From Elusimicrobiota bacterium (GTDB lineage Bacteria; Elusimicrobiota; Elusimicrobia; UBA1565; UBA9628): a stretch of DNA of 44,614 bases. The notes beneath the pieces are model-generated. The model did not search any database, had not been told where the DNA came from, and saw only the letters and a list, made by a program, of their open reading frames with translations. The translations under genes and the position numbers were made by a program. The stretch lies in the NCBI GenBank assembly GCA_003151975.1, contig PLZD01000002.1, positions 214,054 through 258,667 of the forward strand, read 5' to 3'. Below are positions 20,679-20,918 of the stretch, one piece after another (positions within the stretch are counted from its first letter, which is position 1; every line of letters starts with the position of its first letter).

Positions 20679-20701
20679 AAAAACGAGAAAATACGTTTCT
20701 C
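20679..20701 (-). terminator. Rho-independent terminator, minus strand
   Basis: On the minus strand GAGAAA-CGTAT-TTTCTC forms a 6-bp hairpin, followed after one G by TTTTT (20683-20679). It would end both the predicted small RNA and any read-through from tRNA-Asp. The stem is AT-containing and modest in strength. Confidence 0.6.
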
Positions 20702-20755
20702 CCGAAAAGCGAAAGGGCCCCGGTTTCCCGAAGCCCTTGTGCCCAGTTGTCACCT
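20679..20755 (-). ncRNA. Predicted 77-nt small RNA with 5' end antisense to the tRNA-Asp anticodon arm
   Basis: Read on the minus strand, a consensus promoter (20762-20790) predicts a start at about A20755. The RNA begins AGGTGACAACTGGGC (20755-20741), a perfect complement of nt 26-40 of tRNA-Asp encoded about 80 bp upstream on the same strand. Next is an 11-bp stem (20738-20728 with 20723-20713, two U.G pairs) closed by a GAAA tetraloop. It ends with a 6-bp terminator hairpin (20701-20685) and five Ts. No open reading frame of note. Promoter, fold and terminator are read directly; existence of the RNA and binding to the tRNA are inference. Alternative: an incidental inverted repeat beside the tRNA. 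Confidence 0.6.
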
Positions 20756-20852
20756 AAACGGAGTTTACCAGGCGAACGTCATTCTGTCAAGACGGATACG
20801 ACAGGCTGCAGGGAAGGGAGTCGAACCCCCTCTTCCCAGGTGACAACTGGGC
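20741..20852. repeat. 15-bp perfect inverted repeat (20741-20755 / 20838-20852)
   Basis: GCCCAGTTGTCACCT at 20741-20755 is repeated as its exact reverse complement at 20838-20852, where it forms the tRNA-Asp anticodon arm. The arms are 82 bp apart. Three further U.G pairs could extend the duplex on one side (TTT against tRNA G41-G43). Confidence 0.9.
20762..20790 (-). promoter_or_regulatory. Promoter of the predicted small RNA (TTGACA-17-TAAACT)
   Basis: Minus strand: TTGACA at 20790-20785, exactly 17 bp, TAAACT at 20767-20762. It lies between the tRNA 3' end and the antisense segment, so the small RNA can be made independently of the tRNA. The start is expected 6-7 nt past the -10, near 20755. 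Confidence 0.7.
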
Positions 20853-20876
20853 GTGCTACCGTTACACTACCCCGCA
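20806..20876 (-). tRNA. tRNA-Asp (GTC)
   Basis: Complete cloverleaf on the minus strand, 71 nt with the discriminator. Acceptor TGCGGGG pairs with CCCTGCA (one G.T). D-stem GTGT/GCAC, anticodon stem CCCAG/CTGGG with loop TTGTCAC (anticodon GTC), 4-nt variable loop, T-stem GGGGG/CCCTT with loop TTCGACT. Discriminator G73, as expected for Asp. The genome continues CCT, so CCA is not encoded and must be added. The 15-nt segment covering nt 26-40 is complemented exactly by the predicted RNA downstream. Confidence 0.96.
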
Positions 20877-20888
20877 ACCTGATATTGC

Positions 20889-20918
20889 ATACGATTTACC
20901 CCCCTAAAAAGTTCCACT
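20889..20918. repeat. Dispersed 30-bp intergenic repeat, copy 1
   Basis: ATACGATT, then T, then ACCCCCCTAAAAAGTTCCACT. The same 30 bp, with one substitution (T to G at the ninth base), recurs at 44353-44382. This copy lies between the divergent tRNA-Asp and polysaccharide deacetylase genes, in the position expected for the tRNA promoter. Confidence 0.85.

Follow-up and report, generated by a model that had tools for sequence, protein, structure and literature searches.

Non-canonical tRNA genes of Elusimicrobiota paired with small RNAs predicted to act as antisense to their own anticodon arms

Antisense RNAs against mRNAs are known, as is the sequestration or cleavage of tRNAs by RNAs or enzymes. 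T-box elements, which carry a T-box sequence and an antiterminator before an amino-acid gene, are one kind of RNA that reads the anticodon loop of a tRNA. Stress- or competence-induced sigma regulons can place recombination or uptake genes and toxin genes behind a common inducible promoter; we are aware of no such regulon in which tRNA genes are paired to antisense RNAs. In type VIII toxin-antitoxin systems, CreTA included, both toxin and antitoxin are RNA, and the antitoxin of CreTA is made from degenerate CRISPR repeats and acts with Cascade. The CreT toxins sequester rare tRNAs (PMC8501985).

The locus described here lies in a 44,614-nucleotide stretch of an Elusimicrobiota genome (contig PLZD01000002.1, positions 214,054 to 258,667; hereafter the window), in which a tRNA gene is followed on the same strand by a predicted antisense RNA gene. 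Its parts are as follows.

20889 to 20915, minus strand: ECF-type promoter before the tRNA, GGAAC-N17-CGTAT (GGAACTTTTTAGGGGGGTAAATCGTAT), one of 45 exact copies in the genome
20806 to 20876, minus strand: non-canonical tRNA-Asp(GUC) with U1-A72, G73 and no encoded CCA, the putative repressed partner (ARAGORN, Rfam tRNA match, inventory and comparison)
20785 to 20790, minus strand: -35 hexamer TTGACA of the antisense RNA promoter (promoter scan; 17-nt spacing in nine aligned units)
20762 to 20767, minus strand: -10 hexamer TAAACT of the same promoter (promoter scan; nine aligned units)
20741 to 20755, minus strand: antisense segment A, AGGTGACAACTGGGC, the exact 15-nt complement of tRNA nt 26-40 at the predicted 5' end of the RNA (complementarity, covariation)
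20713 to 20738, minus strand: terminator hairpin of the antisense RNA, an 11-bp stem with a GAAA loop, then a T-rich tail to about 20705 (fold, family stem pairing)
20705 to 20755, minus strand: antisense RNA predicted from promoter and terminator, about 50 nt (about 77 nt if extended to the second hairpin)
20679 to 20704, minus strand: second hairpin and TTTTT, a back-up terminator peculiar to the window copy (fold)

The Rfam tRNA covariance model (RF00005) matches the window tRNA-Asp at 57.1 bits as a cloverleaf with a T arm, and this is the sole Rfam match at the unit at both gathering and loose thresholds. A housekeeping tRNA-Asp would combine G1-C72, G73 and a GUC anticodon and be the sole or main decoder, whereas the window tRNA has U1-A72. 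Downstream of it, TTGACA-17-TAAACT (20790 to 20762, minus strand) scores 10/12 as a consensus promoter of the sigma-70 type, with a predicted +1 at 20755 on the minus strand; three promoter-like sites were observed in the region versus 0.4 in shuffles. A sequence-only reading of this DNA had proposed an antisense small RNA aimed at the adjoining tRNA-Asp, its 5' end complementary to the anticodon arm; the promoter, predicted start, 11-bp GAAA stem and 15-nt complement that it described were all recovered in place, and the comparisons below favor the proposed RNA. Its view that chance hardly accounts for the match also holds, as only about 1e-5 chance 15-nt matches are expected in 200 nt (an estimate, 73 x 200 / 4^15) and the match recurs with compensatory changes in paralogs and relatives. 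The terminator calls for one correction: the second hairpin and its five Ts exist, but comparison with other units identifies the GAAA-loop hairpin itself (a GNRA loop, then a T tract) as the family terminator and the second as an extra of the window copy. No terminator was found between tRNA and antisense in the window, so that transcripts from the ECF-type promoter can carry the antisense in cis too. The consensus promoter and terminator, conserved across units, are those that an independent antisense transcript would have. At the unit loci read, a conserved protein is absent, and the unit consists of a tRNA and a short RNA alone.

The window genome (4.64 Mb, 68 contigs, 51 tRNA matches) contains seven such units, six with an extra tRNA-Asp(GUC) and one with an extra tRNA-Glu(CUC). 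Every one of them has the tRNA, a TTGAC-type promoter with 17-nt spacing, a complement of its own anticodon arm and a terminator hairpin, the loop of which is GNRA in all but one. Among 50 tRNAs, the longest self-complement within 200 nt downstream measures 11-15 nt in these seven versus at most 9 nt in the other 43, and the cognate tRNA is the best partner among the 50 for six of the seven antisense RNAs. A further segment B, complementary to tRNA nt ~5-18 (5' acceptor/D arm), is clear in four of the seven and in most relatives; it is missing in clear form from the window copy and from the units C53c and C2c. The antisense of C53c (L050:168-353), with a 3' part devoid of clear segment B, scores slightly higher with the housekeeping tRNA-Glu than with its own tRNA. 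The same genome also holds a tandem of odd tRNAs (L052, G000:C34:62070-62216), a class-I tRNA called as Leu(UAA) and a short one called as Arg(UCU), without antisense.

The sequence-only reading had suggested conservation with covariation in relatives as a check, and when this was carried out the antisense proved to be kept and to covary with the tRNA. In an alignment of nine units, trimmed by hand (unalignable linkers removed, and 1-2 bases taken from the terminator or variable loop of a few sequences to bring columns into register), 13 of the 14 pairs of the anticodon-arm duplex have changed on both sides, including loop positions 32-36 that are unpaired in the cloverleaf. In these nine units 92.6% of duplex cells are paired, versus 28-48% with the partner slid by 1-3 columns; the cloverleaf is also kept (95% of cells paired, with covariation), and the terminator stem is paired in 100% of cells, or 99.6% across 41 sequences. 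The covariation score of the duplex over the 41 sequences is 0.364 versus 0.035-0.074 when slid, in an alignment biased towards the model to which it was fitted. For 35 units, the complement to the cognate tRNA averages 12.3 nt, a value somewhat selected because units were admitted at 9 nt or more, versus 5.2 nt for non-cognate tRNAs, and none of 20000 permutations reached the cognate mean.

Comparison of corresponding sites again shows tRNA and antisense changing together. At one orthologous site, where the proteins on either side are 78% and 87% identical, one genus has a Glu(CUC) tRNA and another an Ile(GAU) tRNA; the two antisense sequences, TTGAGGGGCGGCT and TTATCGGGCGGCT, each match the tRNA beside them. 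A second site carries Asp in two of three genomes and Glu(UUC) in the remaining one, and differing sets of units occupy a third, syntenic site in three genomes. Fold prediction gives a gain of about -20 kcal/mol for the tRNA-antisense duplex, and a read-through RNA is predicted to fold into this duplex and not into the anticodon arm. The complementarity is extended, specific to its target and kept by compensatory change, as would be looked for in an antisense RNA, and pairing and co-evolution of tRNA and antisense are well supported by these comparisons. The housekeeping tRNA-Asp was rejected as the main antisense target, since the complement follows each unit's own tRNA sequence. Regulation of ordinary Asp decoding, put forward in the sequence-only reading, is likewise disfavored: the housekeeping tRNA-Asp is a separate gene (contig C33, position 5652; GGAGCC...GCCA) with G1-C72, an encoded CCA and no antisense, the target is a non-canonical tRNA of the ECF-type regulon, and at orthologous sites the anticodon varies between Glu, Ile and Asp. 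Its other suggestions, a shield against anticodon nucleases or a binder of tRNA halves, gained no specific support. That reading did not include the further units, the segment B of most units, the ECF-type promoter before the tRNA or the relatives' trailer hairpin described below, with its second anti-anticodon loop.

A covariance model of the unit (R1), used to search for units in relatives, matched in several genera of the window genome's family and in another family within its order. Weak matches outside these two families (E above 1e-6, 30-45 bits, for example in family f12) are probably ordinary tRNAs and were not counted. The ECF-plus-tRNA pattern picked out 11 stretches from a collection of about 85,000 species, all in Elusimicrobia MAGs or MAGs titled only 'bacterium', and no mobile carrier of units was found in phage, plasmid or IMG/VR collections. 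About 30 further units were found in related genera, each with an antisense complementary to its own tRNA; the 37 units tabulated comprise 24 Asp, four Ser(GCU), four Glu, two Tyr, two Val and one Ile. In the Ser and Val variants the antisense segments are placed otherwise (a complement of nt 43-53, or two pieces reversed in order), and the logic is kept. Most relatives, unlike the window genome, have a trailer between the tRNA and the sigma-70 promoter that forms a hairpin in which 7-10 nt complement tRNA nt 29-36; this anti-anticodon stretch usually lies in the apical loop, and some cases do not beat shuffled controls.

Several departures from the standard unit were also observed. Two ECF-driven tRNA units have no downstream antisense (L148:1078-1151 in G020; L181, G004:C9:77318), one of them with a trailer hairpin. 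In what appears as a deletion remnant (L140:4273-4346, G013:C4:766772-766845), the 5' half of the tRNA is joined straight to segment B and the terminator, with an ECF-type promoter upstream. The T arm of three unit tRNAs is broken by palindromic inserts of about 55-65 nt (L141:3619-3707, G005:C34; L142:1882-1953, G022:C11; L154:17560-17631, G039:C40); two of the three inserts have AACATCTTT...GCGAGCGAAGGCAGGGTTCGA in common, and the antisense downstream of the interrupted tRNAs is intact. These inserts are possibly a small mobile element or an intron-like insert.

The promoter motif was followed through the window genome; an ECF sigma promoter is marked by a GGAAC -35 and a CGT-type -10, with a sigma gene that autoregulates and an anti-sigma. 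GGAAC-N17-CGTAT gave the 45 exact copies mentioned above and the reversed control pattern none; it sits directly before six of the seven units, and the seventh tRNA lies about 650 nt downstream of a site, behind an ORF, as in an operon. The motif also precedes the gene for an ECF sigma factor itself (L066), followed by an ORF with a sub-threshold match to zf-HC2 (anti-sigma type), and from the form of the motif and this apparent autoregulation we infer that the ECF factor binds it. Further sites precede recA, radC, comEC (Pfam Competence), UPF0102 and a zinc-ribbon/phosphoribosyltransferase protein (ComF-like), a phage-integrase-family recombinase and IS91-type transposases, about a dozen BrnT, HigB or Gp49-type toxin genes, and ORF6N and YhcG proteins. 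A second genus also has the motif, before tRNA units and before recA and a ComF-like gene, both of these genes being named only from the start of their translation. With the motif common to tRNAs and recombination or uptake genes, the tRNAs would be members of a recombination/uptake-like ECF regulon rich in toxin-antitoxin genes, whereas the antisense RNAs appear to have housekeeping-type promoters. The spacer of the 45 sites (for example L066, L076, L080, L084 and L087 in G000) is unusually conserved, with GGGGGG or CCCCCC and then TCAAT, and several toxin-antitoxin genes of the regulon also carry a sigma-70 promoter.

Set beside the described systems, the units share with type VIII toxin-antitoxin pairs and CreTA that both partners are RNA, that a small antitoxic RNA would be encoded beside a toxic one and that tRNA function is the theme; both components are indeed RNA here, and the toxin role of the tRNA is putative. 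They differ in that the repressed RNA is a tRNA with a co-varying cloverleaf to which the antisense would pair directly, and in that no CRISPR effector or repeat-derived guide is evident, nor were direct repeats noticed around the antisense, in the locus sequences read. As in type I systems, a small antisense RNA, made constitutively from its own promoter and ended by its own terminator, would oppose a conditionally expressed partner, but the target is no mRNA, no toxin peptide is needed, and the antisense lies downstream on the same strand instead of overlapping on the opposite one. A T-box likewise reads an anticodon loop; in the units, however, the complement extends over the entire loop and stem (11-16 nt) of a single, dedicated adjoining tRNA, no downstream gene is regulated in cis, and Rfam gave no T-box match even at a loose threshold. 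No paper on tRNA antisense in Elusimicrobia was found in a literature search that was incomplete and could have missed one, CreTA being the nearest concept. For a dedicated antisense RNA that is encoded beside, and co-evolves with, its own tRNA, no description was found in Rfam or the literature searched.

At the level of sequence, the architecture of the unit, its complementarity, its co-variation and its promoter sharing are established, and the explanation that we favor, at a probability of about 0.68, is a multi-copy family in which an inducible non-canonical tRNA is held off by a constitutive, dedicated antisense RNA, the two forming an RNA-only, toxin-antitoxin-like pair. The antisense RNA very probably pairs with its own tRNA and blocks the cloverleaf, which would leave the tRNA inactive while antisense is in excess. 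The antisense would be made constitutively and the tRNA induced with the recombination/DNA-uptake regulon of the ECF sigma factor, so that active tRNA would appear once it outruns the antisense. The freed tRNA, which is probably harmful or conditional, may then disturb or re-programme translation, and the pair may constitute an RNA-only toxin-antitoxin module; the putative regulon also holds many protein toxin-antitoxin modules. Addiction-like turnover is favored by the deletion remnant L140 and the changing sets of units at the syntenic site. The two ECF-driven tRNAs lacking antisense argue against strong toxicity of the tRNA, unless trailer hairpins, or the antisense RNAs of sibling units, act on them, and the retention of Asp(GUC) in most units argues against the anticodon serving purely as a pairing tag. 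The C53c antisense, with its slightly higher score for housekeeping tRNA-Glu, also counts against the favored explanation.

Other readings of the same arrangement also have to be weighed. The tRNAs could be auxiliary decoders, not toxic but useful only in a competence-like state and otherwise kept off by antisense, and a promoter in common with recA, comEC and comF, the predominance of Asp(GUC) and a cloverleaf kept with covariation are all consistent with this; we nevertheless consider it a lesser possibility, as anticodon identity changes at orthologous sites, many units have C33 or odd stems, and a private antisense for each copy, together with remnants, resembles addiction-type turnover. 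That the ECF-induced tRNA is itself the regulator, titrating the antisense off some other target (an mRNA or a housekeeping tRNA, for instance), is improbable: sponging would be permitted by the arrangement, and housekeeping tRNA-Asp and tRNA-Glu are among the next-best partners of some antisense RNAs, but each antisense tracks its own neighbor across paralogs and orthologs, no common second target is visible, and RNAs of about 50-100 nt have little sequence beyond the tRNA-complementary segments. An equally slim chance is given to a role in maturation or quality control, with antisense and trailer hairpin as cis elements steering the folding or processing of the pre-tRNA. The complementary loop of the relatives' trailer hairpin and the uninterrupted path from tRNA to antisense would suit it, but a purely cis element has no need of the separate consensus promoter conserved directly before the antisense, and housekeeping tRNAs have no such elements. 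Chance, or the decay of an inverted duplication of a tRNA fragment, can point to the existence of remnants and nothing more, and is scarcely credible against the covariation, the permutation test and the recurrence in many genera; a simple inverted duplication of the tRNA is ruled out by the compensatory changes.

What the unit tRNAs would do once free bears on a specific form of the favored toxin-antitoxin-like reading, in which AspRS or GluRS charges the tRNA, GatCAB then amidates the Asp to Asn or the Glu to Gln, and the Ser(GCU) units insert Arg at Ser codons; we regard this form as possible but tentative. Between a unit tRNA and the nearest ordinary tRNA of the genome, identity is about 70-79%, and no one parent recurs. 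The unit tRNAs mostly lack an encoded CCA. U1-A72 is present in almost all Asp, Glu, Tyr and Ile units, as it is in tRNA-Asn and tRNA-Gln of the window genome; its housekeeping tRNA-Asp and tRNA-Glu have G1-C72. In tRNA-dependent amidation U1-A72 is a determinant and G1-C72 an antideterminant (PMC9976931), and on this reading GatCAB would amidate the Asp and Glu unit tRNAs because they carry this identity pair in place of G1-C72. The window genome encodes GatB, a bacterial-type AspRS and AsnRS, which together with U1-A72 suggests that charging of the Asp and Glu units might be followed by amidation, placing Asn or Gln at Asp or Glu codons. A second asnS-like gene is also present (L174/L175, G000:C44:24869-25814), its match split across two reading frames. 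The Ser(GCU) units have class-I bodies without the long variable arm, and their nearest ordinary tRNA is a tRNA-Arg in all four cases. Against mistranslation stand the C1-G72 pair in two of the seven window-genome units, the C33 base in about a third of units, which should impair decoding, and the Tyr, Ile and Val units, which have no simple fit. The fullest version of the idea, a class of RNA-only toxin-antitoxin pairs whose toxin is a programmed mistranslating Asp/Glu tRNA (U1-A72, a GatCAB substrate) and whose antitoxin is an antisense to the anticodon and D arms, with release through a DNA-uptake programme under ECF control, must be called rather doubtful.

These readings predict two 5' ends per locus, a duplex specificity that can be matched anew when segments are exchanged, and, upon induction, the replacement of Asp by Asn or of Glu by Gln. 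If programmed mistranslation is correct, cells would mistranslate or arrest during recombination, under the ECF-controlled DNA-uptake programme. If the favored pairing of inducible tRNA and constitutive antisense is true, these bacteria would hold silenced tRNAs ready for release by an RNA switch that is linked to DNA-uptake and recombination genes.
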